From: an uncultured Prevotellaceae bacterium
Lineage (GTDB): Bacteria > Bacteroidota > Bacteroidia > Bacteroidales > Bacteroidaceae
Length of the DNA stretch: 64,000 nt
Reading direction: 5' to 3'
Assembly: GCA_902779455.1 (NCBI GenBank)
Contig: CACZBS010000006.1
Location: 62,001 to 126,000 of the forward strand
Position numbers and translations under genes: made by a program. Of the stretch, positions 1-61,714 are shown piece after piece. Each line of letters begins with the position of its first letter. Position 1 is the first letter of the stretch. Under the pieces are notes generated by a model, which worked only from the letters and a program-made list of their open reading frames with translations, was not told the origin of the DNA and made no database searches.

Positions 1-226
1 GGTCCAAAGATTCGTTCGGGAGCATTGTGATTCCCTCTCCTCTCTCAATCTGTCTTTCAGCCTCCTCGATGCCTGCAAAGAATTCCTCTTTGGTCATCAG
101 CGTGGGGTCGGGCTTCTTTGCCACCAGCTTCTTGATGTATTTCATGAGCTGTGCCGACAAAGCCTCGTCCTCAGCAATGATACTCAGGTCGCGCAGAAAC
201 TCAGCGTTCAGTTGTAATGTGTTCAT
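1..226 (-). CDS. Antitoxin-like small protein (3' truncated by window edge)
   Basis: The reverse strand reads an open frame from ATG at 226 to the window edge (75 codons, no stop). It starts MNTLQLNAEFLRDL and continues with a helical, charged stretch and a KKEEFF-like motif followed by EEAERQIERGEG. From memory this resembles small Bacteroidales proteins encoded just upstream of RelE/ParE-type toxins, so an antitoxin role is likely. The partner toxin would lie to the left, outside the window. The gene begins 11 bp after the stop of the MscS gene on the same strand, separated by a TTCACT-type microrepeat. Confidence 0.6.
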   Translation of the reverse strand, partial: MNTLQLNAEFLRDLSIIAEDEALSAQLMKYIKKLVAKKPDPTLMTKEEFFAGIEEAERQIERGEGITMLPNESLD

Positions 227-237
227 TGTGTCACCTT

Positions 238-1092
238 TCACTTTTCACTATTCACTATATTGACGTCCATGCGGTTGAAGGGGAACATGAAGCCGCCGTC
301 CTTCAGCGTCTGGTAGACCGTCTCGTTCATATAGCCGGCGACGGTCCAGTAGTCGGCCGACTTGCACCACTGGCGCGTCGTGGCCACGCAGCCGCTGTCG
401 CCCAGCTTCGTCAGTCCGATCCAGGGCGCGCTGACGACGTCGCTGTCGCTGACGGGTCCCTGCATGATGAGCGGCGAGGCGGCCTGAATCTTGCCGATGG
501 CCGCCTTCACCTCGTTCAGGTCGGCCCCGTAGGCAAACTGGAAGTCGAGGTCGACGCGGCGATAAGGCTCCGTCGAGTAGTTCTTCATCGAGCCCGTCGA
601 CAGTCCGCCGTTGGGGATGATGATGGTCTGTGCGTCGAGCGTGCGGATGATGGTGTTGAAGATCTGGATCTCCTTCACCGTGCCGGCATAGCCCTGCGCC
701 TCGATATAGTCGCCCACGCGGAAGGGCTTGAACAGCAGGATTATCACGCCGCCGGCGAAGTTCTGCAGCGTGCCGCTCAGGGCCATGCCGATGGCCACGC
801 CGGCCGATGCGAAGAGGGCGATGAACGACGAAGTCTCGATGCCGAGGACGGAGATGATGACGATGATGAGGCAGAACCACAGCACGACGCGGACGATGCT
901 CGTCAGGAAGGTGTAGAGCGTGCGCTCGACGTTGGCGCGCTCGAGCAGCTTGGTGATCAGGCGCGTGATCCACTTGATGAGGAAGCTGCCGATGTAGTAG
1001 ACCACGATGGCCACGATGAGGTTCTTGACGAACCCGAAGGCCCACTGACCCAGCATGCTGTAGGTCTCGGGCGAGAAGATCTTGTCAATCAT
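238..1092 (-). CDS. MscS-family small-conductance mechanosensitive channel
   Basis: A 284-residue inner-membrane channel that should release solutes on hypo-osmotic shock. Three hydrophobic segments are visible at about residues 20-42, 60-85 and 88-118. The third is the Gly/Ala-rich pore helix (AGVAIGMALSGTLQNFAGG) typical of MscS. It is followed by the beta domain (FRVGDYIEAQGYAGTVKEI and a PNGGLSTGSMKNYS motif) and a C-terminal alpha/beta part. The length is typical of the short MscS class. A -7 box at 1122-1129 gives it its own promoter. The last residues (NIVNSEK) and the stop codon are read from an AGTGAA microrepeat, so the C-terminal tail seems to have drifted into intergenic repeat DNA. 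Confidence 0.93.
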   Translation of the reverse strand: MIDKIFSPETYSMLGQWAFGFVKNLIVAIVVYYIGSFLIKWITRLITKLLERANVERTLYTFLTSIVRVVLWFCLIIVIISVLGIETSSFIALFASAGVAIGMALSGTLQNFAGGVIILLFKPFRVGDYIEAQGYAGTVKEIQIFNTIIRTLDAQTIIIPNGGLSTGSMKNYSTEPYRRVDLDFQFAYGADLNEVKAAIGKIQAASPLIMQGPVSDSDVVSAPWIGLTKLGDSGCVATTRQWCKSADYWTVAGYMNETVYQTLKDGGFMFPFNRMDVNIVNSEK

Positions 1093-1121
1093 ATTGTCTG
1101 GCTTGGTTGAAATTTCGCGTG

Positions 1122-1129
1122 CAAAGGTA
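1122..1129 (-). promoter_or_regulatory. Bacteroidales -7 promoter box for the MscS gene
   Basis: The reverse strand reads TACCTTTG, matching the Bacteroidota -7 consensus TAnnTTTG, 30 bp upstream of the MscS start. No clear -33 element is visible. Confidence 0.6.
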
Positions 1130-1176
1130 CTAATAAAAAATGAAATATGCGTAAGGTCGGCCTCTTTTTTTCTTCG

Positions 1177-1968
1177 TCAGACCATGTCGAGCAGCTGGCC
1201 GAAGTGGCTGATCTGCACCATCCGCTCGTGGTCGAAGTGCTCCGTGTGCTCCAGCTCCCACGTCACGTGGAAGGGGATATAGACGCCCCAAGCGCCGATG
1301 GCCAGGGCCGGCGCGATGTCGCTCTTGAGCGAGTTGCCCACCATGAGCAGCTCGCCGGGGACGATGGCATAGCGGTCGCAGAGGTCGCGGAACTCGCGCT
1401 GCGTCTTGTCGCTCGTGATGACCACGTCGTCGAAGTAGTCCTTCAGGCCCGACCGCTCCAGCTTGTGCTCCTGGTCGAGCAGCTCGCCCTTGGTGAAGCA
1501 GACGAGCTTTTGAAGTGAGAAGTGAGAAGTGAGAGGTGAGAGGTGGGCTGGCGCATGAGGGCCGTAGCCTGATGCATGAGCGTCATCTGCTGACTGTCTC
1601 TGGCTGTCCACATAGTGTCGCAGCTCTTCTAGCGTCTCCTTGACCTCGGGCAGGGGCGTGCATGGAAACTCGTTGAGCGTGTAGCACAGCTGCTGAATCT
1701 CGCTGACCTTCGCGGCCGTCATCTCGTAGTGGCTGGCGCGCAGGGCCGTCTCGATCATCGACAGGGTGAAGGCCTTGGTGCCGAAGCCCAGCAGCGGCAT
1801 GTTCTTGCGCTCGGTGGCGAAGAGCTGGCGGGCGGCCTCCTCGCGGGTGCCCGTCCAGGGCAGCAACTCGGTGTAGAGCTGCTGCATGACGCGCTCGAAG
1901 TGTCCCTGGCAGTCCCAGAGGGTGTCGTCGGCGTCGAATGCAATGATTTTGATATTCTTATTCATCAT
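1177..1968 (-). CDS. HAD-superfamily hydrolase carrying an in-frame repeat insertion
   Basis: A cytoplasmic haloacid-dehalogenase-like phosphatase, probably for a small phosphorylated metabolite. Motif I (IAFDADDTLWD) is at residues 8-18, a cap follows, and motifs VCFTKGE, TSDKTQ and MVGNSLKSDIAPA come later. The start is placed at ATG 1968 (or 1965) because this overlaps the upstream gene's stop (stop at 1958-1960), suggesting translational coupling. An unusual segment of about 30 residues lies just before motif II (about residues 122-153). Part of it (LSPLTSHFSLQ) is encoded by a GTGAGAA-type microrepeat otherwise found between genes. The conserved motifs are intact on both sides. Confidence 0.87.
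   Translation of the reverse strand: MMNKNIKIIAFDADDTLWDCQGHFERVMQQLYTELLPWTGTREEAARQLFATERKNMPLLGFGTKAFTLSMIETALRASHYEMTAAKVSEIQQLCYTLNEFPCTPLPEVKETLEELRHYVDSQRQSADDAHASGYGPHAPAHLSPLTSHFSLQKLVCFTKGELLDQEHKLERSGLKDYFDDVVITSDKTQREFRDLCDRYAIVPGELLMVGNSLKSDIAPALAIGAWGVYIPFHVTWELEHTEHFDHERMVQISHFGQLLDMV
1511..1545. repeat. GTGAGAA/GTGAGAG microrepeat inside the HAD gene
   Basis: About five 7-bp units of the type GTGAGAA or GTGAGAG lie inside the HAD coding sequence and keep its frame. The same kind of microrepeat occurs between genes at about 229-257 (TTCACTT units) and 50575-50597. Confidence 0.75.
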
Positions 1969-3133
1969 AGATCTCGAATGTGGCGGGCAGTCCTGACAGG
2001 TGGACGTCGTGCTCGCGCTCTGCATCGCTGCTCAGCCGCAGGTACCACGCAGGGGGGAGCACTTCCCAGGTGAGGGGTGAGGCGCCGGTGGTGGGAGGAC
2101 GGAGGTCGAGCGTCGCCTCCATGTTGGGGAATCCGCCGCCTGTCTGCTCGCTGAATTCCTGCTGGTCCTTCGTCACCTCGCCGTCAGTGTTGGCGAAATA
2201 CATCTTATACGTCACGCGGGTGGGGTAGAGCGTGCCGTCCGGGCGCAAGGCATACATGACGCGATAGTCGCGCGTCCACTGCGTCACCTTGTAGCCCGAC
2301 ATGAGCTGCGCCATGCTGTAGAGCACGGCCGACATGCGCTCGTGGCGGTTCGTGCGGGTGCCCGTCTGGCGGGTGGCCTCGAGGATGACGCAGCGGGCCG
2401 TGTCGATGACGATGCGGCCGCGGTCGTCCGTGCGGTTCTTCGAGCGGAAGAGCAGTTCCACCTCCGCCTTCGTCTGTCCCTGGAAATCAGGGTTCTCGCC
2501 CCATTTGTGCGACGCGATGAAGCCGTTGTCCAGCTCCATGATGAAGTCCTCGTAGAGCATGCGGCGCAGGTTCTGCGTGTCAGTCAGCCGCGTCGTGTCG
2601 GCGCTCGTGATGTGGCTCGTGTCAGCCGCGATGGCGTAGCGCTTCTGCCCGTCCGACCGCATGGCCATCAGTCCCGTGAGGTGGTAGCGGTAGAGGCTGT
2701 TCGTGCCGATGCTCTGCGTCCGGTAGCTGAAGCCGAGCGTGTCCTGGCGCGAGAAGTAACGCTCCTCTTTCGTCCTGACCACCTGGCGCAGCTTGCGGCG
2801 GATCCACTCCGGCTCCTTGTTCGTCACGACCACCTCGGCCGTGCTCCTGTATCGCGGCTGCAGCCAGATGGTGTCGCTCAGCCGCCGCACGATGGTCGTC
2901 TCGTAGTTCAGGTGCGAGACGGTCAGCCGTCGGAACTCAAACGCCACGCGGGCCACGCCGTCGGTGCCGCTGATGGCCGAGCGGAAGCGCCCCTGCTCCT
3001 TGGCGTAGAGCGAGGCGTGGGCGACGGGCGCACGCGTCACGGCGTCGGCCACCACCGTCGTCCTCCCCGCGGTCTGTCCCCACGTCGTGAGCACAGCCGT
3101 CCATGCCATCCATAACAGCATCATTCGTCTCAT
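1958..3133 (-). CDS. Secreted protein with carboxypeptidase-regulatory-like domain
   Basis: A 391-residue protein with an N-terminal signal peptide (about residues 1-20). Next comes an Ig-like carboxypeptidase-regulatory fold at about 24-100 (TTVVADAVTRAPVAHASLYA, then FRRLTVSHLNYETTIV). This fold is shared by many exported Bacteroidota proteins. The remaining 290 residues look like a soluble beta-rich domain that I cannot assign. The frame overlaps the HAD gene by about 11 bp, so the two form a transcription unit led by a promoter at 3254-3261. Starts at 3133, 3127 or 3124 are all possible. The function is unknown and no catalytic motif was seen. Confidence 0.85.
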   Translation of the reverse strand: MRRMMLLWMAWTAVLTTWGQTAGRTTVVADAVTRAPVAHASLYAKEQGRFRSAISGTDGVARVAFEFRRLTVSHLNYETTIVRRLSDTIWLQPRYRSTAEVVVTNKEPEWIRRKLRQVVRTKEERYFSRQDTLGFSYRTQSIGTNSLYRYHLTGLMAMRSDGQKRYAIAADTSHITSADTTRLTDTQNLRRMLYEDFIMELDNGFIASHKWGENPDFQGQTKAEVELLFRSKNRTDDRGRIVIDTARCVILEATRQTGTRTNRHERMSAVLYSMAQLMSGYKVTQWTRDYRVMYALRPDGTLYPTRVTYKMYFANTDGEVTKDQQEFSEQTGGGFPNMEATLDLRPPTTGASPLTWEVLPPAWYLRLSSDAEREHDVHLSGLPATFEIYDE

Positions 3134-3178
3134 CTGGCTTCTTCTATTGACTAATGATTATTCCACCGCTTTGCAGTT

Positions 3179-3240
3179 GGAGGCGACGTGTCTCACGTCG
3201 CAACAAGCTGCCAGATTGCGACGTGAGACACGTCGCCTCC
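3179..3240. repeat. Perfect 25-bp inverted repeat in a 5' leader
   Basis: Arms 3179-3203 and 3216-3240 are exact reverse complements (core CGACGTGTCTCACGTCG) with a 12-nt loop. The repeat lies between the minus-strand promoter at 3254-3261 and the gene starting at 3133, so its transcript would carry a very stable hairpin near the 5' end. Confidence 0.9.
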
Positions 3241-3253
3241 TACTTGTGCGCTG

Positions 3254-3261
3254 CAAAGTTA
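3254..3261 (-). promoter_or_regulatory. -7 promoter box for the 3133-1177 operon
   Basis: The reverse strand reads TAACTTTG, a match to TAnnTTTG. It is preceded by a T-rich stretch and followed by GCAGC, about 120 bp upstream of the start at 3133. Confidence 0.6.
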
Positions 3262-3352
3262 CGACTTTTTTCCCTTTTTTCAGCAGGATTGTCCTTTTAA
3301 TTTTCGTATCGACCAGAGAGAGCGGACGGAAGGCCCCGCGGAAAACTCTCGT

Positions 3353-3437
3353 CACGTCGTGACGGCATGAAACCACGTCGTGACGTCATGAAATCACGCC
3401 GTGACGCCATGCCGTCACGACGTGACGAGAGTTTCCG
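3353..3437. repeat. Four-unit 21-bp palindrome array (CACGnCGTGACG type)
   Basis: CACG-n-CGTGACG cores start at 3353, 3374, 3395 and 3416, exactly 21 bp apart. Units are joined by GCATGAAA- or CATGCCGT-type spacers. The array is enclosed by an inverted repeat (AAACTCTCGTCACG to the left, CGTGACGAGAGTTT to the right). It lies 71 bp upstream of the -7 box at 3508 in the 428-bp gap between divergent genes. A second array of the same family is at 43853-43931. Confidence 0.9.
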
Positions 3438-3507
3438 GCATGCCTCGCGCTGCCAAATTTCACATTATTTTTAGCATAAAATCGTGTTCCGTTTCGAAAA
3501 AAATGCG

Positions 3508-3515
3508 TAACTTTG
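3508..3515 (+). promoter_or_regulatory. -7 promoter box for the giant PL11 gene
   Basis: TAACTTTG, followed by CCCCCG, 47 bp upstream of the start at 3562. The flanks are AT-rich. A -33 element is weak (GTGTT near 3484). Confidence 0.65.
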
Positions 3516-3561
3516 CCCCCGAATTATGTGAATAAACTAAAAACTAACATACTAATAAACA

Positions 3562-6500
3562 ATGAGACGTCTACTGCTACTGGCAATCTTGACATTCGCT
3601 TTCACAGGCGTAACCCATGCCCAGCGCTTCACTGACAAGGTGGACCGCGGCCTCGTCGCCGTCCCGTCGAACAACGGCGGCTATCTGGTGTCATGGCGAC
3701 TGATGGGCGAAGAATACTACGATACGAAATACAACCTCTATCGTGACGGCGCCCTCATCGCCTCCGACCTGACCAAGACCAACTTCCTCGACGGCTCGGG
3801 AAAGGCGGCGTCAGTCTATCAGGTGGAGCCCGTCGTGCGCGGCAAGTCGCAGGGACTGTCGGCCGAGGTGAAGGCCTGGGCACAGCAATACCTGTCGGTG
3901 CCCGTGCTGCCCGTGGTCAACCGCGCGGGCAAGACCATCGGCAACGCCGTGACCAACGGCGATAGCAATACGTCGGGCTATATCCTGAACGACGTGACGC
4001 TGGCCGACGTTGACGGCGACGGCATCGTCGAGTTCATCGTCAAGCGCAACAACGTGCAGGGCAACCTGACCAGCGAGGGCAACAAGACCGACTTCAACCT
4101 CTATGAGTGCTACAAGATGGACGGCACCCGCCTCTGGTGGATCGACCTGGGGCCCAACCTCATGGCCGGCCCTGACGAGCAGTGGGACATGATCGGCTAC
4201 GACTGGGACCAGGACGGACGCGCCGAGATGCTGATGCGTGCTGCCGACAACATGATCATCCACACGGCCTCGGGCCGCACCATCAACATCGGCGACATGA
4301 ACTACTATGCGCCGCGATTCGAGTACACCCGCAACGGTCGCGAATACCTCCTCTACCTCAACGGCGCGACGGGCGAGCCCTACGGATGGGACGGCACGAG
4401 CGACAGCTTCACGCCCGAGGCGTTCCCCCTGCCGCGATTCGAGCAGGGCGAGGCCAAGGACGTGCTCAACCCCACCGATGCCGAGTATAAGGCCGTCTGG
4501 GGCGACAACGACACGGGCCACCGCTCACTGAAGATCTACATGGGTGCGCCCTATATCGACGGCCGCAACCCCGCCATCTTCCTCGGCCGCGGATGCTACA
4601 CGCGCCATAAGTTCTGCGCCCTCAGCGTCGACCCCGCCACCCATCAGCTCACCCAGCTGTGGCGATGGAACTGCTACGACTCCAAGTCGGCCTGGTATGG
4701 CAACGGATTCCATAACTTCGCCATCGCCGACGTCGACATGGACGGCCGCGACGAGATCGTCTTCGGCTCGATGATCATCGACGACACGGGCTACGGACTC
4801 TGCGCCACGGGCTACGGCCACGGCGACGCTCAGCACTGCGGCGACCTCGACCCCTACCGCTGGGGACTGGAGCAGTTCACCTGTCTCGAGGGTCTGGCCA
4901 TGCCTAACAACTGCTACTACAACGCCACCACCGGCGAGGTCTACTATCAGGCCTCGCCCGGCTCCGACGACGGCCGCTGCCTGGCCGGCAACTTCACCAA
5001 CGACATTCCCGGCTGCCAGGGACGCTCCGTCGCCACAGGCATCATCGCCCTCTCGGCCGACAAGGTCGTCTATACCAACGGCGACGCCTACATGGCCTGG
5101 GGCGACCTGAACAACCGCATCTACTGGGACGGCGACCTCTGCGACGAGATCATGAACTCGCCTGGCGTGCAGCGCTCGGTCAAGATCACCAAGTGGGGCA
5201 ACGGCCGAATGACGTTCTTCAACAGCTCGGGCCTCTACACACCCACGGGCATCCTCAACAACTCGTCGAAGAACAACCCGTCGGCGCAGGGCGACATCAT
5301 CGGCGACTGGCGCGAGGAACTCGTGCTGCGCACCAGCGACAACTCGGCACTCCATGTCTACACGACGAACTACGCCTCTGACTACGGCATCTATACCCTC
5401 TGGCACGACCATGAGTATCGCAACGGCATGTGCTGGCAGAACGTGGGCTACAACCAGCCGCCGCACGTCAGCTACTTCCTCGGCGAACTGGAGGGCATCA
5501 CCCAGGCTCCGCCCCCACTGATGCTCAACGGCCGCACCGAGGTCGGCGCCACCATCTCGACCACCAGCGACCACCTGCTCGTCTCGGGCTATGAGGACAA
5601 GACAATCGCCGTCGAGGACGGTGCAGAGCCTTACATCCTGACGGTCAACACCCCCGCATGGGTGCAGGGCAGCGGCTCGCAGCAGGCCACGAGCGCTACG
5701 CCGAAGTCGCCCGCGCGTACCATTATTAATTATACGACGACCCTCACCGGCGGTGCCTTCAGCGGCACCACACGACTGGTGAAGCAGGGCGAGGGCACCC
5801 TCGTGCTGCCCAACGTCACCGAGCACCACACCGGAGAGACCAGCATCTGGCAGGGCACCTTGCGCTTCGACGGCACGATGGAGGCATCGCCCGTCTGGCT
5901 CAACCGCCACACCACGCTCCTCAGCGACGGCGGACGCTTCATGGGCGGACTCAGGGCCGACTACGGCGCTACCATCCACCCCTGTGGCTCGGCCGCCCAG
6001 CCCTCGCAGTCGGGCATCACCGTCTCGACGCTCACGCTGGGCTTCGGCTCGCGGGTCGTCCTCGACGCCTATAATGCTGGCGACGGCTTCGTCTTCTCGC
6101 AGTTCAACGCCCAGAAGCTCGTCATCGACACGCGCGACTGGGAGAACGGACCCAAGTATAAGGCACCTGTCATTCAGTTTGCCGTCAGCGGCGACATCGT
6201 TGCCGGACGCTATCTGCTGGGTAGCATCGCCGAAGTGGTGGGCGACATCGACAACATCGTCCTCGAGGGCATCGGCGACAAGCGCCACTTCCTCAGCCTT
6301 GAGGACGGCCAGCTCTACCTCGTCGTCGAGGACATGCGCGCCGCCACCACCGTCGTCTGGAACGGTACGACGGAGAGCAGCATCTGGGACTTCGGCGTGA
6401 CCAAGAACTTCCTCAACGATGGTAAGGCCGACTATGCCGGACAGGGCGACGACGTCGTGTTCGACGATGAGGCCGAGGTCACCAACGTCGTCATCAAGGG

Positions 6501-8250
6501 CGGCGTGCGGCCTAAGTCGGTCACCTTCAACAACGAGAAGAAGGCCTACACCCTGACGGGCGACAGCATCCTCGGCGGTGGGACGATCACCAAGAACGGC
6601 GCTGCCACCGTCACCATCAACACCGAGAACCGCACCGGCGCCACCTATATCAACGGCGGCCGGCTGGTGGTCAACATGCTGGCCAACAAGAGCGGCCAGA
6701 CCTACGGCGCACTGGGCGATGCCAACCAGGTGATCAATATCACCGACGCCATGCTCACGGCCAACGGCACCATCACCACTGACCAGCCCTTCAAGGTGGG
6801 CGGCGACGCCACCATCGACGTGCCCAAGAGCATGGCCCTGACGATGAACAACAGCATCAAGGGCGTGGGCGCCACGGTCATCAAGACGGGCGAGGGCTCG
6901 TTCATGATGGGTCAGAACAACACGTTCACCAAGCTCGTCGTCAAGACAGGCACGGTCAGATCGCAGGAGAACTCCAGCGCCGTCATCCAGGTGCCTGACA
7001 CCATCGAGCTGCAGGGCGGCACGTTCAGCGACGTGGCCAACGAGAACACCTACTCGTCGAACCGTGTCAACTTCGTCGTGCCGGCTGGCAAGACGGGCAC
7101 CTTCTACGGCGACCCCCGCTGCGAATACACAGGCACGCTGACAGGCGCCGGCACGTTCAATGTCTACGGCACGTGGATCCGCTGCCGCTACAAGGGCGAC
7201 TGGAGCCAGTTTGAGGGCACCGTCGTGCCCGGCCTGCAGGACCGCTCCGTCAAGCATGGCTACGACCCTGAGTTCTCGTTCTGCAACAACTACGGCCTGC
7301 CCAAGGCTACGCTGAAGCTCAATGACGGCATCACCGTCTACAACCGCGACCCGGAGAGCGGCACCAAGTATAACGTAGCCATCGGCAACGTCACCGGCAC
7401 CGGCACACTGGCCGGCGGCGGCACCTACACCATCGGAATGTTGGGCAAGAACATGATTGCCTCGTTCCATTCCACGGCTCCCATCGTCAAGCGTGGCGAG
7501 GGCTACCTGCAGGTCTCCGGCATCGGAAACCTCAGTGGCGCCGTCACCATCGAGGAAGGTCAGCTGCGCTTCAATGACGTCAAGCTCGAACAGCCCTATT
7601 TCGGCGCCGTCACCCTCAAGGAGAAAGGCACGATGCAGGGCGGTGGACTGCTGCCCTCGCTGACCATGGAGAGCGGCACCGAGGCCACGGCCGCCAGCAT
7701 GTATTCGGCCGCGACGCCGCGCATCGTCAAGGTGAACGCTGCCGCCAACGTCAAGAAGGGCGCCACGTTTAACTTCATCGTCAAGAGTGCCACCCTCGGC
7801 CAGCAGTCGGCTCCCGGCTATTCACAGCTCAACGCCCGCTTCCTGACCTTCAACGGCACGGTGAAGGTCACCCTGGCCGACAGCTACACCCCGAAGGCCG
7901 GCGACGAGCTGAAGCTCTGGTCCGCCACCAGCAGCTTCTCCGGCACGCCCGAGTTCGAACTGCCCGAGCTGCCGTTGGGCCTCTGGTGGGACACCACCGG
8001 CATGGCCCAGAAGAGCGGTGTGCTGCGCATCACCGACGTGGCTCCTGACGCCATTGCCGCCATTGCTGCCGACGCCGTCGTCGATGCCGAGATCTATGAC
8101 CTTGGCGGCACGCCGCTCGGCACCGTCCGTTGCGAGCGCCGCGCCCTGGCGTCGGCCGTCCGCCAGCTGGGCCTGCGTCCCGGCCTCTATATCGCCCGCA
8201 TGCAGCAGGGCCAGCACCGTGCTGCCGAGACCATCGTGGTGGGCAAGTGA
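3562..8250 (+). CDS. Giant PL11 rhamnogalacturonan lyase with beta-strand repeats
   Basis: A 1562-residue exported protein. Residues 1-21 are a signal peptide. Residues about 22-640 match family PL11 rhamnogalacturonan endolyase, with DxDxDG-type calcium-binding loops (ADVDGDGIVEF, YDWDQDGRAEM, ADVDMDGRDEI). PL11 enzymes cleave the rhamnosyl-galacturonate backbone of rhamnogalacturonan-I by beta-elimination. About 900 residues that stand-alone PL11 enzymes lack follow. They show recurring GxGTLVLPN/GxGYLQVSG and TGETSIWQGTLRF/TGATYINGGRLVV motifs, the pattern of autotransporter-associated beta-strand repeats, which suggests a long beta-solenoid stalk. The last 70 residues (EIYDLGGTPLG, then GLYIARM) look like a T9SS type-A sorting domain, so surface anchoring or secretion by T9SS is inferred. 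It is probably followed in the same transcript by 8298. Confidence 0.9.
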   Translation: MRRLLLLAILTFAFTGVTHAQRFTDKVDRGLVAVPSNNGGYLVSWRLMGEEYYDTKYNLYRDGALIASDLTKTNFLDGSGKAASVYQVEPVVRGKSQGLSAEVKAWAQQYLSVPVLPVVNRAGKTIGNAVTNGDSNTSGYILNDVTLADVDGDGIVEFIVKRNNVQGNLTSEGNKTDFNLYECYKMDGTRLWWIDLGPNLMAGPDEQWDMIGYDWDQDGRAEMLMRAADNMIIHTASGRTINIGDMNYYAPRFEYTRNGREYLLYLNGATGEPYGWDGTSDSFTPEAFPLPRFEQGEAKDVLNPTDAEYKAVWGDNDTGHRSLKIYMGAPYIDGRNPAIFLGRGCYTRHKFCALSVDPATHQLTQLWRWNCYDSKSAWYGNGFHNFAIADVDMDGRDEIVFGSMIIDDTGYGLCATGYGHGDAQHCGDLDPYRWGLEQFTCLEGLAMPNNCYYNATTGEVYYQASPGSDDGRCLAGNFTNDIPGCQGRSVATGIIALSADKVVYTNGDAYMAWGDLNNRIYWDGDLCDEIMNSPGVQRSVKITKWGNGRMTFFNSSGLYTPTGILNNSSKNNPSAQGDIIGDWREELVLRTSDNSALHVYTTNYASDYGIYTLWHDHEYRNGMCWQNVGYNQPPHVSYFLGELEGITQAPPPLMLNGRTEVGATISTTSDHLLVSGYEDKTIAVEDGAEPYILTVNTPAWVQGSGSQQATSATPKSPARTIINYTTTLTGGAFSGTTRLVKQGEGTLVLPNVTEHHTGETSIWQGTLRFDGTMEASPVWLNRHTTLLSDGGRFMGGLRADYGATIHPCGSAAQPSQSGITVSTLTLGFGSRVVLDAYNAGDGFVFSQFNAQKLVIDTRDWENGPKYKAPVIQFAVSGDIVAGRYLLGSIAEVVGDIDNIVLEGIGDKRHFLSLEDGQLYLVVEDMRAATTVVWNGTTESSIWDFGVTKNFLNDGKADYAGQGDDVVFDDEAEVTNVVIKGGVRPKSVTFNNEKKAYTLTGDSILGGGTITKNGAATVTINTENRTGATYINGGRLVVNMLANKSGQTYGALGDANQVINITDAMLTANGTITTDQPFKVGGDATIDVPKSMALTMNNSIKGVGATVIKTGEGSFMMGQNNTFTKLVVKTGTVRSQENSSAVIQVPDTIELQGGTFSDVANENTYSSNRVNFVVPAGKTGTFYGDPRCEYTGTLTGAGTFNVYGTWIRCRYKGDWSQFEGTVVPGLQDRSVKHGYDPEFSFCNNYGLPKATLKLNDGITVYNRDPESGTKYNVAIGNVTGTGTLAGGGTYTIGMLGKNMIASFHSTAPIVKRGEGYLQVSGIGNLSGAVTIEEGQLRFNDVKLEQPYFGAVTLKEKGTMQGGGLLPSLTMESGTEATAASMYSAATPRIVKVNAAANVKKGATFNFIVKSATLGQQSAPGYSQLNARFLTFNGTVKVTLADSYTPKAGDELKLWSATSSFSGTPEFELPELPLGLWWDTTGMAQKSGVLRITDVAPDAIAAIAADAVVDAEIYDLGGTPLGTVRCERRALASAVRQLGLRPGLYIARMQQGQHRAAETIVVGK

Positions 8251-8297
8251 TATGATAACTCTTTATACTATTATTTTATTTATTAACAAAAACAATT

Positions 8298-11249
8298 ATG
8301 AAAAGACTATTTACTCAACTGTTGGCCCTGATGGCTGTCGTCAGTGCCAACGCACTTGAGGTGGACGAGTACATCTACTCGAACACCAACAAGTTCAAGG
8401 TGACCGGTCAGAACATTGTCGTCAACGGCAACTTCGCCAACCTCTTTGAGGACGGTTGGACCAACGAGGAAGGTGGAGCCGTCGATGGCGCTGTGTGGGA
8501 AACCACGACGACCGAGGACGGTCGCACCGTCGTGAACTCTGCCGCCCAGACCTCTGAGGCTACGAAGGCCCTGGCCAACGTCTGGGAGCTCCAGAACGGC
8601 CTCTATGTCGTCAGCTACTGGGCCAAGGCTGCTTCCGGCAGTATTGTGACCACCACCACGGCCGGTCAGAACAACTACGTCAACTTCTTCGCCAGCACCG
8701 ACGGCACCACCAACAGCCGTGCCATCAGCGGTGCTGAGAGCATCGGCACTGATTGGACGCAGGTGGTCGACACCATCTTCGTCGGCGTCGAGAAGGAGTT
8801 CCTCGTGTTCAATGCCAGCGGCATCCCCTCGGGAACGATGTTCACCGACTTCGAGATCTATCCCGTCGTCGAGGTCTACGACACCCGCATCGTCGACCGT
8901 CTGATCAAGTATGCCGAGGACCTGCTTGCCGAGCCCGACCTGGTGAACGGTAAGGACGACTTCGGCGGCATCGTCGAGATGATGAAGGGCATGGTCGAGG
9001 ATCCCAGCCAGTCTGAGGACGCCGACGCCATGCAGGCCCTGATCGACAACTTCAACGAGGAGTTCAACAACTACATGAACCTCAACGGCGGTAACATGAA
9101 CGCTGGCGACTGGACGACCGTCAAATCGCTGGGCTTCAACAAACTGAAGAACACGACGCTCGTCGGCAGCTGGGCTGTCGTCGGCGATCGCTGGGGCTTC
9201 TCTGCCAACGATGCCTCTCTGGAGCGTCCGGCCAACGACGGCTATGTCGCTTCTGCCGGTATTCAGCAGACCTTCGACCTCGGCGAGAAGGGTATCAAGG
9301 TTGAGAATGCTGCCTGGGCTCCCGGCAAGTATTTCTTCGCCATCGAGGCCCAGGAGGTTGCTGCCTCTGCCAAGAGTTCGCCTTACGGAGCCGACCACAC
9401 CAAGCTGTTCATCGGCCCGAAGCTCTACATCGGTAGCGACACCCTCGTGATGCGTCCCGCCACCGAGGCTGAGCTGGCTGCTGCCAACCCCAACTTCCGC
9501 TATGCTGAGACGCCCGACACGCTGAACGGCTACTACTGGAAGCGCTACTACATGATCGGCGAGGTGAAGGCAGGCGAGACCGTGCGTGCCGGATTCATCT
9601 TCCCCGGATACACCGACAAGCGCGGTGGTCGCGCCAGCCTGCGCAACCCCGAATTCCGTATGCTTGGCAAGACCGAGCTGCAGCTCAAGTATGAGCAGGC
9701 CGTCAAGGAGGTCATCACGCAGCAGATCGAGCTGAAGGCTCGTCTGGACAACTATCAGAACGACGTGGCCGAGTACATCTGGTCGAAGGATTCCGTCGAC
9801 CGTGCCGTGGCCAACGCCCTGCCCGTCTATGAGGCTTCGCTGGCCATCGTCAATCCCGTCGACAGCACCTGCACGCTGCCTGTCAGCGAGGAGAGCCTGG
9901 AGCAGCTGGGTGCCTATGCCAGCAACGAGAACAATGCTACCGGTCTGGTCAAGGAGCTGATGATCCAGGTCAATGAGCTGGGCCGTGCCAAGAACTATGT
10001 CATCAACCAGAACGCCATTCAGGAGACCCTGAAGAACACCATCGCTGAGGGTCAGGCCGTTCTCGACGATCCCCTGAACGCTGGTGGCGACGCCGCCAAG
10101 CGTGCTGAGCTGCAGTCGGCTGTCAGCGCTGCCCAGTCGCTGATCGACAACATCTCGGCTACCAACCAGTACGACGAGTTCCAGGCTGCCATCGACGCCA
10201 TCAAGGCTGCCATCGTGGCCTTCAAGATCACAGCTGCTGCCCGCAACAATCCTGCCGACATCGCTCTCGTCAACGCTGACTTCGCAGCTAACTCCAGCAA
10301 GATCACTACGACGACCCCGTTCACCAACAACGGTTGGAACTACACCCCCGCCGGCACCTTCAAGCAGTGGGAGTATGGTGGTCCCTCCGACGAATGGGAA
10401 GGCAGCAAGAGGTGCAGCCAGTGGCGCGGCTCGACCGTGACCCTCGGCGGCAAGGTGCAGCAGACGGTCACCCTGACCGATCCCGGTGTCTATGAGTATC
10501 GTGCCATGGCTTATGCCCACAACGACAACCTGGGCTATCTGCAGGCCAGCGCTGAGTATGTCGTCGACGAGGAGGGCGTCCAGATCGACACCATCTACAC
10601 CAACATGCCCGCACGCCTCTTCTTCGGTCCCGACGGTCTGCCCGACAGCATCCGCGTCACCAAGAGCATCGCTCCCGGTGCCAACAGCAGCGCCGTGGCC
10701 AACCGTCCTTGGCGCAACATCAGCGGCTTCACGCCCTGGCACTACTCTGTCTTCTTCGTCAAGAAGAACGCTGAGCCTGTGACCGTCGAGCTCGGCTTCG
10801 AGGTCGACGCCCTCGAGGTGGGTAAGGGCCTGAACGGCTTCGGCTTCGGTGCCAACCACCTCTTCTTCGTTGGCGACGAGGCTAAGTACACCGCCGACAC
10901 CAAGGCCGAGCTGGCTGCTGAGGTGGCCAAGGCCAAGGCCGTCGTCGCTGCCGCTGCCGACAATGCAGAAGTGGCCTTCCTCGTGGTGAAGCTCAACCGC
11001 TACATCGCCAACGCCGAGGCTGCCACCACCATCAAGGACATGCAGAACGCCTACCTGAGCCTGCTGGAGGTAGAGGGCCTGATCAACGGCGTCATTGCCG
11101 ACGTTGAGGGCATCGCCGCTACCTTCGCTCAGCCCGTCGAGGCTGTCAAGGGCGTCTACACCATCTCCGGCCTGAAGGTCGGCAACAGCGTGGACAACCT
11201 GAAGGCCGGTCTCTACATCATCAACGGCAAGAAGTACGTGGTGAAGTAA
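8298..11249 (+). CDS. Large secreted binding-type protein with T9SS-like C-terminus
   Basis: A 983-residue protein with a signal peptide (residues 1-20, cleaved near SANA-LE). Residues about 32-200 resemble a carbohydrate-binding jelly roll of the CBM4/9 type (VVNGNFANLFEDGWTNEEGG). A second beta-rich region spans about 265-450. Residues 450-660 are helical (repeated KAELQSAVSAAQSLID and EFQAAIDAIKAAI), similar to FIVAR-type helical linkers. A third beta-rich domain spans 670-860, more helices follow, and the final 40 residues (GVYTISGLKVG, LKAGLYIINGKKYVVK) fit a T9SS sorting signal. No catalytic motif was recognised. Its position 47 bp after the PL11 gene suggests a surface pectin-binding role (inference). 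A strong terminator follows. Confidence 0.75.
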   Translation: MKRLFTQLLALMAVVSANALEVDEYIYSNTNKFKVTGQNIVVNGNFANLFEDGWTNEEGGAVDGAVWETTTTEDGRTVVNSAAQTSEATKALANVWELQNGLYVVSYWAKAASGSIVTTTTAGQNNYVNFFASTDGTTNSRAISGAESIGTDWTQVVDTIFVGVEKEFLVFNASGIPSGTMFTDFEIYPVVEVYDTRIVDRLIKYAEDLLAEPDLVNGKDDFGGIVEMMKGMVEDPSQSEDADAMQALIDNFNEEFNNYMNLNGGNMNAGDWTTVKSLGFNKLKNTTLVGSWAVVGDRWGFSANDASLERPANDGYVASAGIQQTFDLGEKGIKVENAAWAPGKYFFAIEAQEVAASAKSSPYGADHTKLFIGPKLYIGSDTLVMRPATEAELAAANPNFRYAETPDTLNGYYWKRYYMIGEVKAGETVRAGFIFPGYTDKRGGRASLRNPEFRMLGKTELQLKYEQAVKEVITQQIELKARLDNYQNDVAEYIWSKDSVDRAVANALPVYEASLAIVNPVDSTCTLPVSEESLEQLGAYASNENNATGLVKELMIQVNELGRAKNYVINQNAIQETLKNTIAEGQAVLDDPLNAGGDAAKRAELQSAVSAAQSLIDNISATNQYDEFQAAIDAIKAAIVAFKITAAARNNPADIALVNADFAANSSKITTTTPFTNNGWNYTPAGTFKQWEYGGPSDEWEGSKRCSQWRGSTVTLGGKVQQTVTLTDPGVYEYRAMAYAHNDNLGYLQASAEYVVDEEGVQIDTIYTNMPARLFFGPDGLPDSIRVTKSIAPGANSSAVANRPWRNISGFTPWHYSVFFVKKNAEPVTVELGFEVDALEVGKGLNGFGFGANHLFFVGDEAKYTADTKAELAAEVAKAKAVVAAAADNAEVAFLVVKLNRYIANAEAATTIKDMQNAYLSLLEVEGLINGVIADVEGIAATFAQPVEAVKGVYTISGLKVGNSVDNLKAGLYIINGKKYVVK

Positions 11250-11279
11250 GACTGCACCGACAGACCATATCATTTAGGC

Positions 11280-11326
11280 AGTGCCGCCTTTCGGAGCTTC
11301 AGTCTCCGAAGGGCGGCACTCTTTTT
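11280..11326 (+). terminator. Rho-independent terminator
   Basis: A 17-bp stem (11280-11296 with 11304-11320, one G-U pair) and 7-nt loop are followed by TTTTT. It lies 30 bp after the stop at 11249 and ends the PL11 transcription unit. The stem core GTGCCGCC resembles the neighbouring 22-bp repeat units. Confidence 0.88.
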
Positions 11327-11375
11327 GTGTGGCAAAGTGTCAGTTTATTTTACATCCGTGGCAACGGCGAAAAAG

Positions 11376-11455
11376 AAGTGCCGCTTTTCGGGTCGAGAAG
11401 TGCCGCTTTTCGGGTCAAGAAGTGCCGCTTTTTCCATCGAGAAGTGCCGCTTCTT
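11376..11455. repeat. Four-unit 22-bp array (AAGTGCCGCTT type)
   Basis: AAGTGCCGCTT occurs at 11376, 11398, 11420 and 11442, exactly 22 bp apart. The linkers vary (TTCGGGTCGAG, TTCGGGTCAAG, TTTCCATCGAG). The core is the exact reverse complement of AAGCGGCACTT found in the arrays at 53469 and 61627, so the three belong to one family. From here to the element at 11599 there is only AT-rich sequence with nothing I recognise. Confidence 0.9.
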
Positions 11456-11598
11456 TGGGCGGATTTTGTAAATGGTTGATTATTAGGCGATTTAGAAAAA
11501 TGAGATCTTGGCTCGAATAAAACTTTACAATTTCTGCGTCAATTGTGAAGGCGAAGTCTGTCCTGTAAGGCCTCGTGTTATATATACATTCGCATAAA

Positions 11599-11791
11599 GT
11601 TACAGACCCCACCCCCAACCCCTCCCCTTGAAGGGAGGGGAGCAGCTGCGCCGTCATTCCCGTCGGACAGTGCGCCAGCCAACTCCCCTCCTTTGGAGGG
11701 GTCGGGGGAGGCCACCCCCCTCCTTCGGAGGGGTTGGGGGAGGCTTTCTCCCCTCCCTTCAAGGGGAGGGGCTGGGGGTGGGGTCTGTAAC
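11599..11791. repeat. Long palindromic element PE-1, copy 1
   Basis: A 193-bp element bounded by GTTACAGACCCC and GGGGTCTGTAAC. The outer arms (about 44 bp each) are nearly perfect inverted repeats of C-rich sequence. The centre holds CAGCTGCGCCGTCAT and CCGTCGGACA, shared with copy 2, plus smaller internal palindromes. No open reading frame or clear target-site duplication is seen. Between the element and the gene at 12103 there is AT-rich leader DNA with a near-consensus -7 (TTATTTTG at about 12027-12034). Confidence 0.9.
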
Positions 11792-12102
11792 TTCCAACCG
11801 GTGGTGAAATCAGATTTTTATCTTTTCAGCTCATCGCCCAGCTACCTCCCAAATGTCAAGACAAGCGCTAAATCCATTGGATTTCTTAGTTTTTTTATGA
11901 TCATTCCTTCAGCCGACCATTGGCGCTTCATACGTTTTTTCGTCATGTATGGTGCAGTTTTCAAAAAATGTAGTCTAAAGTGCAAAAAATGAAGATAGTT
12001 TTTTTGGCTAATTCGTTTTTTTTTTGTTATTTTGCATCGCTTAAACAAATCTATTAAAAAAAGAAACGTTTCGAAACTATATTAAAATATTAGCTAATAA
12101 GT

Positions 12103-14946
12103 ATGAAAAAATTCATTTTCTGCATTTCTCTGTCCCTCGCGGGACTGATGACTGCCTGCGTGGACAAAAACGAGGCAGTGGATGCCGACAGCAAGCCCTC
12201 GTGGCTCGGTGGAAGCATCTATCAGGAATTGAAGAACCCGCAGTACCTCTCGGGAACGTTTACGAACTACGTGCGGCTCATCGACGACCTCAACTACGCC
12301 GAGACGCTCAACCGCACAGGTTCGAAGACCATCTTCCCCGCCAACGACGAGGCCTTCGAGCGGTTCTTCAGTGACAATGAATGGGGGGTGAGCAGCTACG
12401 ATCAGCTCACCGACGCCCAGAAGCAGCAGCTGCTCTATTCTTCGATGCTCGACAACGCCATGCTCGTCGGCATGCTCTCGAACGTCAGCAATGGTAACGA
12501 CGAGATGAACAAGGTGCGCAAGGGCATGGCCGTCAAGCACCAGTCGAACCTCCAGGTCGTCGCCACCGTCGAGCGCATGACGGCCGACGAGATGCCCAAG
12601 GGCAACCCCTACTGGGACCAGCACCGCAAGAACGGCGAGATCTACGTCGTCAGCGATGCCACCACGCCCATGCTCGTCCACTTCACCCGCGAGCACATGC
12701 TGACCAACAATATCACCACGAAGGGCGACGACAGCGACTTCGCCATCCTCACCGGCACACCCTATGAGGACGGCATGGCCTACATCTTCGACGACCAGAT
12801 CACGCACAGCGACGTCACCTGTCTGAACGGCTATGTCCATCAGGTGAAGGACGTCATCGTGCCCCCGGGCAACATGGCCCAGCGTCTGCGCGCCGACGGC
12901 CACATGAACTATTTCAGCCGCATCCTCGACTATTTCTCCGCACCCTATGAGAACCAGACGCTCACCGACGCCTACAACGCCGTGGCCCTGGAGAAAGGTC
13001 TGCCCACGATCGACATGATCTACGAGGTGCGCTACTTCAACCGCAAGCAGAACCACGCCGTGGAGCGCGATCCTGACAACAACGTCGTCGACGCCAAGTA
13101 TCGTCTCGACTACAACCCCGGCTGGAATGAGTACAGCCCCATCGACCGCGGCAACGACGGCGTCGACTGGCCTCTCTCTGACATCGGTGCCATGTTCGCC
13201 CCGACCGACGAGGCCGTCGTGAAGTTCTTCACCGAGGGTGGCGACGGCGCCTACCTCATCGACCTCTACGGATGCCACAAGGGTGCCGACAACACCGAGG
13301 CCAACCTGGCCGAGAACCTCGACACACTCTTTGCCCAGCCCAGCGGCTCGGGCTGGGAGATCCTGACCAAGTTCGTGCGCAACCTCATGAAGTCGTCCTT
13401 CGTCGAGACCGTGCCCAGCAAGTTCCACACCATCCAGAACGATGCCAAGGACTATATGGGCGTCACCACCGACCTGCTCACCAAGCGTGCCGACGGCACC
13501 TACGACATCGTCATGGCCAACAACGGCGTCATCTACAAGATGGACGAGCTCATCGCCCCCGACGAGTATCAGAGCGTCATGGCCCCCTCGTCCGTCTATC
13601 CTGACATGCACGTGATGAACTGGGGCGTGCAGGACGAGGACAACCTGAAGGTCTCGTTCCACTACTACCTCATGGCTATGAAGTCGAACTTCGCATTCTT
13701 CATCCCCGACGACGCTGCCTTCAGCCGCTACTATGTCGACCCCACCAGCCTCGGCAAGGATCTGCCACAGGCCCTGAAGTTCACCTGGGAGGGCGACACC
13801 ACCGTCAATGCCGAAGGTGAGCGCATCGTCCGCAATGTGGGCATCCGCTGCCGCGCCTACGCTTACGACAAGGCCACCAACACCGTCGGCGAAGTGCTCA
13901 ACAACGGCGGTACGCTGGCCGTCGACCAGTGGCGCACGCAGTTCATTGACATCCTGAACTACCACACCGTGGTGCTCAACGACGGCGAGACCATCGGCAC
14001 CAATAATTATTATAAGACGAAGCACGGCGGCGAAATCCGCATCACGGGCAACCGCGAGGGATGCACCGTCGCCAGCGGACAGCAGATCGACAACGGCCTG
14101 ACGCCGTCACTCATCACCCGCGTCTACGACGAGAAGAACGGTCAGGCCTTCCGCATCGATCACGTCATCGAGTCGCCCCGCAACTCCGTCAGCAAGACCC
14201 TCGAGATGCACTCCGACCGCTTCTCCGAGTTCTACGACCTCTGCAACGGCTTCGACCCCGAGCTGCTCGCCTGGGCCGGCATCAGCAACGAGCAGAACTC
14301 GTTCGGCACCACCGAGCAGGACAACTACATCGTCTTCACCGCTGACCGCGGCTCCGGCTCCAACAAGGTGGCCCGCAGCTGTCTCGACTACAACGTGAAG
14401 ATGTTCAACACCTACAACTACACCCTCTATGCTCCCAACAACGCAGCCATGCAGAAGGCCTACGCAGCTGGGCTGCCCAAGTGGGATGAGATCAACGCCC
14501 TGCGCGAGACCTATCAGGACGACCTCGACGCTGACGGCAACCCCACCGAGGCTGCACTCATGGCCAAGGCTGACTGCAAGCGCATGATCGACATCATCCG
14601 CGACTTCGTCCGCTACCACTTCCAGAACAGCTCCGTCTATGCCGACAACGTCGTCGAGAGCAACCGCTACAACAGCCTGAGCACCGACGACATGGGACTG
14701 GCCATCGAGATGCAGGTCAGCGGCGGCAGCGGCAAGATCCAGGTCACCGATGCCACCGGCGCCACACGCACCGTCGACGCCGCCGACACGTCGAAGCTCT
14801 CGAACCTCATGTGCCGCGACTACTGGTTCGACGGCTCCCGCGACGCTCGCGACACCCACGGCATCTACACCTCGTCGTTCTGTGTCATCCACGAGCTCTC
14901 CGAGCCCCTCTGCTCAGGAGCCTTCGCCAAGTCGTGGTCAAACTAA
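12103..14946 (+). CDS. Fasciclin (FAS1)-domain lipoprotein, large
   Basis: A 947-residue lipoprotein. The signal peptide ends in a lipobox (GLMTAC, Cys19), so it is probably on the cell surface. Several FAS1-like modules can be seen: TIFPANDEAFERFF near residue 75, MFAPTDEAVVKFF near 365, FFIPDDAAFSRYY near 530 and TLYAPNNAAMQKAY near 765. FAS1 domains are adhesion or ligand-binding folds without catalysis. Its start codes the first gene of a run of eight same-strand genes (fasciclin, SusC, SusD, fasciclin, fasciclin, SusC, SusD, GH115). The 28-bp gap to SusC points to one operon and a role as a surface glycan-binding partner of the transporter (inference). Confidence 0.85.
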   Translation: MKKFIFCISLSLAGLMTACVDKNEAVDADSKPSWLGGSIYQELKNPQYLSGTFTNYVRLIDDLNYAETLNRTGSKTIFPANDEAFERFFSDNEWGVSSYDQLTDAQKQQLLYSSMLDNAMLVGMLSNVSNGNDEMNKVRKGMAVKHQSNLQVVATVERMTADEMPKGNPYWDQHRKNGEIYVVSDATTPMLVHFTREHMLTNNITTKGDDSDFAILTGTPYEDGMAYIFDDQITHSDVTCLNGYVHQVKDVIVPPGNMAQRLRADGHMNYFSRILDYFSAPYENQTLTDAYNAVALEKGLPTIDMIYEVRYFNRKQNHAVERDPDNNVVDAKYRLDYNPGWNEYSPIDRGNDGVDWPLSDIGAMFAPTDEAVVKFFTEGGDGAYLIDLYGCHKGADNTEANLAENLDTLFAQPSGSGWEILTKFVRNLMKSSFVETVPSKFHTIQNDAKDYMGVTTDLLTKRADGTYDIVMANNGVIYKMDELIAPDEYQSVMAPSSVYPDMHVMNWGVQDEDNLKVSFHYYLMAMKSNFAFFIPDDAAFSRYYVDPTSLGKDLPQALKFTWEGDTTVNAEGERIVRNVGIRCRAYAYDKATNTVGEVLNNGGTLAVDQWRTQFIDILNYHTVVLNDGETIGTNNYYKTKHGGEIRITGNREGCTVASGQQIDNGLTPSLITRVYDEKNGQAFRIDHVIESPRNSVSKTLEMHSDRFSEFYDLCNGFDPELLAWAGISNEQNSFGTTEQDNYIVFTADRGSGSNKVARSCLDYNVKMFNTYNYTLYAPNNAAMQKAYAAGLPKWDEINALRETYQDDLDADGNPTEAALMAKADCKRMIDIIRDFVRYHFQNSSVYADNVVESNRYNSLSTDDMGLAIEMQVSGGSGKIQVTDATGATRTVDAADTSKLSNLMCRDYWFDGSRDARDTHGIYTSSFCVIHELSEPLCSGAFAKSWSN

Positions 14947-14974
14947 CAGTCATTCACCTAAAAAGCCAAGATAA

Positions 14975-32161: not shown

Positions 32162-32193
32162 CATATGATAGCCCCCAATGCCGCCCGCAGCTA

Positions 32194-32277
32194 TTTTCAT
32201 GCCGTGAAATATTATTTTCAAGCCTTGAAAATAAATTTCCAAGTCATGAAAATATATTTTCACGCCGTGAAAATAGT
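32194..32277. repeat. Four-unit 21-bp palindrome array (TTTTCAnnCCnTGAAAA type)
   Basis: TTTTCA (or TTTCCA) starts at 32194, 32215, 32236 and 32257, exactly 21 bp apart. Each unit is a palindrome such as TTTTCACGCCGTGAAAA. The segment TTTCATGCCGT is shared with the CACG-type array at 43853. The array ends 122 bp upstream of the -7 box at 32399. Confidence 0.88.
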
Positions 32278-43765: not shown

Positions 43766-43852
43766 GTAATAATAATTGGAATAAGGGGCGGTTTAGGAAA
43801 TATTAACGATTCTACAGCCGTTTATCCAATCAGCGGCCCGCAAAACTTACGC

Positions 43853-43931
43853 CACGCCGTGACGCCATGGCGTCACGGCGTGATTTCATGCCGTCACGAC
43901 GTGGCGTCATGGCGTCACGGCGTGACGGAAG
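43853..43931. repeat. Four-unit 21-bp palindrome array (CACGnCGTGACG type)
   Basis: CACG-n-CGTG cores start at 43853, 43874, 43895 and 43916, exactly 21 bp apart, separated by CATGGCGT, TTTCATGCCGT and GTCATGGCGT. It is the same family as 3353-3437. It lies between divergent genes, 78 bp upstream of the start at 44009. Confidence 0.9.
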
Positions 43932-44008
43932 TTTTTTTTTTCCCGGCTCTTTGCAACTTTCTGGGGCCTGCCTTCGTCTAATGAGTAAAACAACAACGGA
44001 AAAAAGTT

Positions 44009-53468: not shown

Positions 53469-53556
53469 AAAGCGGCACTTCGTGGCCCTCGAAACGGTCC
53501 TTTGCGGCCTTCAAAGCGGTCCTTTGCGACCCTCAAAGCGGTCCTTCGTCCAGCAC
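53469..53556. repeat. Four-unit 22-bp array (AAGCGGCACTT/AAGCGGTCCTT type)
   Basis: Units start at 53469, 53491, 53513 and 53535, exactly 22 bp apart, each beginning AAAGCGG or GAAACGG; a degraded fifth unit (GAGGCGTCGCTTTGAGG) follows. The first unit contains AAGCGGCACTT, the same word as in 61674-61684 and the reverse complement of the 11376 array. Confidence 0.88.
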
Positions 53557-59319: not shown

Positions 59320-59396
59320 ACAATGTACAATGAACAATGTACAATGTACAATGTACAATGAACAATGTATAATGAATAATGTACAATGAACTAAAT
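59320..59396. repeat. ACAATGTACAATGAACAATG microrepeat
   Basis: About nine degenerate 7-10 bp units of ACAATGT/ACAATGA fill the gap between 58318-59319 and 59403-60800. A short stretch of the same repeat lies at 61240-61262, next to the PE-2 elements. Confidence 0.8.
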
Positions 59397-61626: not shown

Positions 61627-61714
61627 GAGAAGCGGCGCTTCTCGATGCGAGAAGCGGTCCTTTTCGACTCAAAAAGCGGCACTTCTCTGACCGAGAAGCG
61701 CCGCTTTTTCATAG
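61627..61714. repeat. Four-unit 22-bp palindrome array (GAGAAGCGGCGCTTCTC type)
   Basis: Units start at 61627, 61649, 61671 and 61693, exactly 22 bp apart (GAGAAGCGGCGCTTCTCGAT, GAGAAGCGGTCCTTTTCGAC, AAAAAGCGGCACTTCTCTGA, GAGAAGCGCCGCTTTTTCAT). The array ends 132 bp upstream of the -7 box at 61846. Confidence 0.9.

Follow-up and report, generated by a model that had tools for sequence, protein, structure and literature searches.

Closest described systems

Interspersed palindromes of bacteria are, as a rule, linked to transposases or to the ends of RNAs. REP/BIME sequences are described as GTAG-/CGTC-tagged palindromes, the large clusters of which are variable in composition (PMC3733652). The arrays reported in this study resemble them in being short palindromic interspersed repeats that are mostly extragenic and lineage-specific, with clusters known in REP/BIME as well (PMC3733652), whereas the present arrays have four units at a fixed 21 or 22 bp and no Y1 transposase match was found in their source genome. 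The PINSR repeat of Prevotella intermedia/nigrescens is likewise a lineage-specific intergenic repeat, with about three quarters of its sites common to two strains; however, it is 188 bp long, lacks terminal inverted repeats, and phased palindromes are absent from its description in the sections drawn on (PMC4755523). The BrickBuilt MITE of Porphyromonas gingivalis is similar in being interspersed and in having a short tandem repeat and inverted ends, but target duplications were reported in 3/4 copies examined, while none was found here, and the string "palindrom" does not occur in the main text of that report (PMC4596501).

Among regulators, a close system is BarR, an Lrp/AsnC-type protein that forms an octamer; atomic force microscopy (AFM) of Ah-BarR showed DNA that is apparently wrapped (PMC10201364). 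Its sites are 15 bp long with 15–17-bp spacers and lie in one intergenic region, four to five of them being predicted for Sa-/St-BarR and three found for Ah-BarR (PMC10201364). They are half-palindromic and regularly spaced, and one dimer of the octamer is presumed to contact each of them (PMC10201364). They offer a partial precedent for the present arrays, which differ in having 11-bp sites, 10–11-bp spacers and dozens of loci.

Design of the arrays and proposed reading

The window, i.e., the whole stretch of 64,000 nucleotides that was analysed, corresponds to G000:C6:62001-126000, where G000 is the source genome, a 3.7-Mb assembly of 49 contigs with a completeness of 93%. Gene models were obtained with our own hexamer-based gene caller, and no annotation was used. 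The sequence-only reading of this window had reported palindromic cores at 3353, 3374, 3395 and 3416, 21 bp apart, as one of six loci with three core types. Both statements are borne out: the cores are CACGNCGTG at 3353 and 43853 (class A), AAG-N5-CTT at 11376, 53470 and 61630 (class B), and TTCAAG-N-CTTGAA at 32192 (class C). The array at 3353 represents one copy of a discrete element that spans 92 bp (3343–3434) and has AAACT and AGTTT ends. The features are as follows.

3343–3434, no strand assigned: class A element, 92 bp, palindromes at 3353, 3374, 3395 and 3416, asymmetric spacer 2 on the minus strand
43843–43934, no strand assigned: the window's second class A element, with its asymmetric spacer 2 on the plus strand
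3253–3261, minus strand: TAACTTTGC, probable −7 box of a minus-strand gene, with the array at 3353 on its upstream side
3508–3516, plus strand: TAACTTTGC, probable −7 box of a plus-strand gene, with the array at 3353 on its upstream side
11376–11452, no strand assigned: class B array, four units, past a separate terminator-like hairpin (11280–11320); a weaker terminator-like site (11447–11462) overlaps the last unit
53470–53546, no strand assigned: class B array of four units, AAA replacing AAG in unit 2, 7 bp past the stop codon at 53462
61630–61706, no strand assigned: class B array, four units of AAG-N5-CTT at 22 bp
32192–32275, no strand assigned: class C array, core TTCAAG-N-CTTGAA, four units resembling TATTTTCAAGNCTTGAAAATA with a 21-bp period

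Class A consists of four CACGNCGTG palindromes with a 21-bp period, and its template, which spans 72 bp between the outer ends of palindromes 1 and 4, reads CACGNCGTG ACGNCATGNCGT CACGNCGTG ATTTCATGNCGT CACGNCGTG ACGNCATGNCGT CACGNCGTG. Dyad symmetry is present in the 9-bp palindrome and in spacers 1 and 3, while spacer 2 is asymmetric and thus gives the element an orientation. The flanks differ among the copies, most of which have the AAACT/AGTTT ends in common as short terminal inverted repeats. Class B (AAG-N5-CTT, 22 bp) and the rarer classes have the layout of class A, and nearly every class B unit listed carries CGG beside one AAG arm and a looser partner, in either orientation, although the scan did not require CGG. 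The class A sequence contains CGTCACG...CGTGACG, which bears on the REP tag (GTAG/CGTC), and the class B units carry no such tag. Membership in the CRISPR arrays is unsupported, as the spacers of class A are conserved, in part palindromic, and not unique. At locus L182 (11778–11971), a single convergent gap contains two arrays, one of class B and one of class A, placed back to back.

With a probability of about one half, the array is a double-stranded binding platform for four putative protein dimers at the borders of transcription units. A sequence-specific DNA-binding protein would place one dimer on each 11-bp palindrome, and the 21/22-bp period, equal to two helical turns, would bring the four dimers onto about one helix face; because the period aligns the helix face, they would be able to pack together or to wrap about 90 bp of DNA. 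This reading builds on what was observed, namely the design, how many copies the samples contain, where they lie, and fixed bases that are conserved while the remaining ones are free to vary; from this we infer a protein that would bind as dimers and cooperatively, and its effect. CGG with a looser partner is the expectation for a dimer site and is thus counted in its favour. Of the three options that the sequence-only reading had offered, a protein-binding platform is the best supported one, with the binding itself as its putative part.

Unit number and period

Period scans covered 855 kb of G000, with a Markov shuffle of the identical sequence as the control; the stretches came from contigs with class A matches and several were picked for holding class A, so that class A is over-represented in this sample. 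Four-palindrome arrays were found 26 times at period 21 and at most three times at any other period, compared with none at period 21 and two in total (periods 15 and 20) in the shuffled sequence. A similarity-filtered rescan of the same 855 kb gave 27 arrays at period 21, six at 22 and nine at all other periods, i.e., 33/42 at 21 or 22. When three units with 4-bp arms that are identical were required (a strict test, G000 samples), 14 arrays at 21 bp and four at 22 bp were obtained, all intergenic, versus seven arrays at the remaining periods between 13 and 45.

Class A arrays number 33 in G000, of which about a quarter was sampled, and 30 in G041, a relative within the genus. With at most one mismatch per unit, four consecutive units were found in 31/33 and 30/30 of them, respectively, a tally that is biased because the template favours four-unit arrays. 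A scan from at least three units returned 41 distinct rows, a few of them overlapping or off-class, and among them one plain three-unit array, L004. Across the whole of G000, a search with one class A unit pattern gave 118 exact matches over both strands, and none when the pattern was read backwards. Class B, scanned as AAG-N5-CTT at 22 bp from three units up, gave 27 arrays in G000, all intergenic, with four units in 22, three units in three and five units in two; a rescan with another core expression again gave 27 arrays, one of them within a coding region.

The possibility raised in the sequence-only reading that these are ordinary simple repeats is not borne out by the scan on samples, since unit number (four) and period (21/22) hardly vary and the arrays lie between genes, G110 with up to at least seven units being the exception. 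A period mostly of 21/22 bp with four units favours the binding platform.

Conservation and turnover

Between G000 and G041, 12.6% of four-fold sites differ (20,562 sites in 94 genes near arrays). In 23 orthologous class A arrays, 67/207 N positions (32.4%) have changed, compared with 45/1,449 fixed positions (3.1%), a contrast that favours the platform. The elements appear to be maintained by selection. These 23 were retained out of 27 orthologous pairs: window array/L202, L079/L201 and L176/L186 were dropped as doubtful, and L181/L200 was dropped for the worse fit of its template orientation. Before the doubtful pairs were removed, the 21 same-orientation pairs gave 28% (N) and 2.8% (fixed). 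The excess of the N positions over the four-fold sites may come from gene conversion, codon constraint or chance, and gene conversion among copies could be an alternative source of the low fixed-position change, the fast N change and the flipped pair L087/L090. In this pair, the class A interior (L087, 11610–11683) is flipped between conserved flanks, by inversion or by conversion from an opposite copy. A general inversion mechanism is not supported: six pairs were first scored as flipped, and re-scoring left L087/L090 alone as clear.

All class A loci of G000 with both flanks mapped in G041 are occupied there (14/14, of which 13 were scored as occupied and one, negative by the template, shows its array by eye in the printed sequence; 19 unmapped), as are those of G041 mapped in G000 (16/16; 14 unmapped). 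No empty class A site was thus seen among the 14 and 16 mapped loci, and this retention also favours the platform. The class B rows compared with G041 (n = 26) comprise 22 that are unmapped, two occupied, one changed three-unit row and one, L064, that is absent along with about 230 bp of its surroundings. In the pair L004/L046, the array has one unit fewer in G000 than in G041.

The arrays might instead be MITE- or REP-like relics that once spread, persist where harmless and are homogenised by gene conversion, the four units being the sites of their transposase. We regard this as a serious alternative, if a somewhat improbable one. It would account for class A flanks that differ around common AAACT/AGTTT ends, for the flipped L087/L090, for the absence of L064 from the relative, for neighbours without a single theme, and for array positions that avoid genes and promoters. 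However, no target-site duplication was found at 61 class A arrays (the best 2-bp offset, 11/61 with 3.8 expected, is the best of more than 2,000 combinations), none of the mapped class A loci is empty, the Y1 (RAYT) transposase family PF01797 has no match in G000 (10 candidates scored, in an assembly 93% complete), and the four-unit 21/22-bp layout occurs with unrelated cores elsewhere in the genus. Membership in the REP/RAYT system is unsupported for want of a PF01797 match in G000, as is membership in the MITEs, given that there is no target duplication and no empty class A site, though most class A copies have short inverted ends. The mobile or expanding element proposed in the sequence-only reading accordingly finds little support, with 14/14 and 16/16 mapped loci occupied and no target duplication.

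Position relative to genes and promoters

The array at 3353 sits between two outward-facing copies of TAACTTTGC, a motif that we take to be the Bacteroidetes −7 box, and would therefore be transcribed from neither flanking promoter; its place upstream of both divergent boxes favours the platform. In G000, class A arrays (n = 33) lie in same-strand gaps (15), convergent gaps (nine) and divergent gaps (eight), with one at a contig edge. Within same-strand gaps, 14/15 elements have their edge 2–62 bp from the upstream stop, and the stop is closer than the next start in 15/15; for the divergent arrays, the distance to the nearest start is 74–227 bp. Of the starts facing class A, 25/31 gave a TAnnTTTGC box, compared with 297/864 random intergenic windows, and 20 of these 25 boxes are at a distance of 37–136 bp from the array. 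Class A is located between transcription units: its arrays either follow a stop closely, without reaching into the next promoter, or separate divergent starts.

For class B, the box was found for 9/16 starts facing an array, and the stop is the closer end for 10/13 four-unit arrays in same-strand gaps, a trend weaker than that of class A. None of the 27 class B arrays is in a divergent gap and 9/27 are in convergent gaps, while 58/206 background gaps are divergent. The statement that all six window loci lie upstream of a plus-strand transcription unit is literally true but misleading, because 4/6 are also behind a plus-strand stop codon. As a rule, it fails: 9/33 class A and 9/27 class B arrays are in convergent gaps with no start facing them, and a transcription-unit border fits better.

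No shared neighbour-gene family was found among 243 neighbouring proteins, where the largest cluster has nine members and recurrence is limited to large families, and the domains of 18 neighbouring proteins, including divergent neighbours, showed no common pathway or regulon. Element edges that hug stops, boxes that face the arrays and neighbours without a single family all favour the platform. Two rhamnogalacturonan lyase family 11 genes (3562–8250 and 41816–43735) each adjoin a class A array, and other polysaccharide enzymes (GH106, GH115) are encoded in the stretch of both genes.

RNA folding and hairpin pairing

As a single strand, the array folds into a long predicted hairpin with a z score of −9.6, and its position is in part what would be expected of an RNA element at mRNA 3′ ends, i.e., a terminator or a transcript-protecting hairpin, an explanation that we consider unlikely. 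Consistent with it, 24/33 class A arrays are in same-strand or convergent gaps, 14 of the 15 same-strand ones hug the stop, and class B is absent from divergent gaps. However, 8/33 class A arrays are divergent, both TAACTTTGC boxes have the array at 3353 on their upstream side, and a hairpin requires complementarity rather than fixed letters.

The pairs of the long hairpin were examined by covariation, using sets from which class A arrays with more than eight mismatches to the template were dropped (1/33 in G000, 1/30 in G041). The centre bases of units 1 and 4 are complementary in 10 arrays of G000 (9.2 expected) and 11 of G041 (8.6 expected), and those of units 2 and 3 in five (7.7 expected) and none (6.9 expected), respectively, showing no covariation. 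The exception is the pair of units 1 and 2, whose centre bases are complementary in 17/32 class A arrays of G000 (8.6 expected, 0/2,000 permutations) and 16/29 of G041 (9.0 expected, p = 0.0025), in sets that are partly orthologous and with 36 pairs tested. These centres are template positions 4 and 25; the centres of units 3 and 4 do not covary. This complementarity fits an RNA and counts against the platform, as independent dimers do not predict it.

The class B pairing set from G000 comprised arrays of exactly four units, three of whose cores fit a CGG/CCG-type expression (n = 25), and its variable bases showed no hairpin pairing at the five dyad centres, which favours the platform over a folded transcript. 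In G188, the unit order is + + − − in 3/5 class B arrays (L250 2977, L252 3507, L253 3763), and the spacers are also complementary in L250, L251 and L253 (five arrays in all). By their unit order and complementary spacers, these arrays resemble long inverted repeats, which counts against the platform and is in line with an RNA.

A terminator scan of window positions 1–16000 gave 10 terminator-like sites, compared with 11.4 in shuffles, and none at 3353. At 11376, a terminator-like site overlaps the class B array, as an RNA element would predict, but the array also lies past a separate terminator-like hairpin. A terminator role for class B (a hairpin followed by a T-run), given this one weak overlapping site and the 0/27 divergent arrays, shares the low probability of the RNA explanation as a whole. 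Rfam 15 covariance models at the gathering score had no match in the window, leaving membership in a known RNA family unsupported, and no tRNA was found there. The reading as a long-hairpin RNA is thus weakened, and recognition as double-stranded DNA is favoured over RNA on balance.

Candidate protein and possible role

If the binding platform is correct, the arrays would mark transcription-unit borders, behind stops, upstream of promoters and between divergent promoters, with a role that is probably architectural or insulating rather than that of operators of a single pathway; alternatively, their positions could be places that tolerate insertions. That they serve an ordinary global regulator as operators for the genes downstream is very improbable, since, despite the 20/25 boxes facing class A at 37–136 bp, 9/33 class A and 9/27 class B arrays occupy convergent gaps and the examined neighbours have no common pathway. 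No candidate binding protein was found. Some Lrp/AsnC proteins form octamers of four dimers, and three PF01037 (Lrp/AsnC) matches in G000 provide a lead only. Should a border or wrapping protein bind these arrays, that protein would offer a way to study how the chromosome is organised in a dominant gut and rumen genus, as well as a natural case of one protein and many sites changing specificity together.

Distribution in the genus

The class A unit pattern was found in only 2/150 genus genomes sampled, G000 and G041, and a longer class A pattern searched against named genomes was present in Prevotella sp. RGIG4424 and one more metagenome-assembled genome (MAG), RGIG3793. A third species, G188, gave longer blastn matches to G000/G041 loci at 71–81% identity and has a four-unit class B array in 5/5 stretches, which were chosen for holding class B units. 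In a TCA-TGA triple scan of 200 genus genomes, the reversed control itself matched in five genomes, and following these matches revealed arrays of 21-bp period in G110, G040 and G115, with cores like AGTGGCTTACT; in G110 the unit number is variable. G003, G042, G119, G120 and G173 have further cores, repeated in about four units with a period of 21 or 22 bp. Genus stretches of 654 kb, including those of G110 and G040, which were known beforehand to carry arrays, gave three four-palindrome arrays at period 21, one of them a 7-bp simple repeat (the period-21 hits L120 and L231 being repeats of this kind), seven at 22 and four elsewhere. No four-palindrome array of any period was found in 311 kb from 19 genomes of the order's other genera.

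The arrays are a real and regular element family with conserved fixed bases, and their layout recurs in the genus with differing sequences. The layout kept by Prevotella relatives with unrelated cores suggests that a protein and its sites change specificity together, and geometry rather than sequence being common to the species points to a protein assembly. A genus-wide Prevotella DNA-packaging or border system is a tentative possibility, in which an oligomeric protein family would clamp four phased palindromes, and the protein and dozens of sites would switch recognition together between species while the layout of 4 × 21/22 bp stays. No comparable assembly was matched in Rfam (window) or returned by a literature search on titles and the beginnings of abstracts, the scope of which left out preprints and most subscription journals.

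Other repeats nearby

A second element consists of paired 19-bp palindromes, GCGACGTGTCTCACGTCGC / GCGACGTGAGACACGTCGC, within GGAGG...CCTCC, and lies close behind a TAnnTTTGC-like box, probably in the 5′ UTR. It occurs at 3178–3242 in the window and at L068 16375, L084 11407, L085 15842, L177 8921, L179 4061 and others. The sampled G000 loci hold 12 copies, of which seven share a gap with class A and none with class B. This element appears to have been gained or lost recently, because 4/6 mappable loci lack a copy in G041 and 2/6 have one. Plainer tandem repeats (7/14 bp, ACAATGT; 16/24 bp, TTCGTTATAACG) were also observed at 59313–59391 in the window and at L052 11208, L051 10518 and L084 6402.
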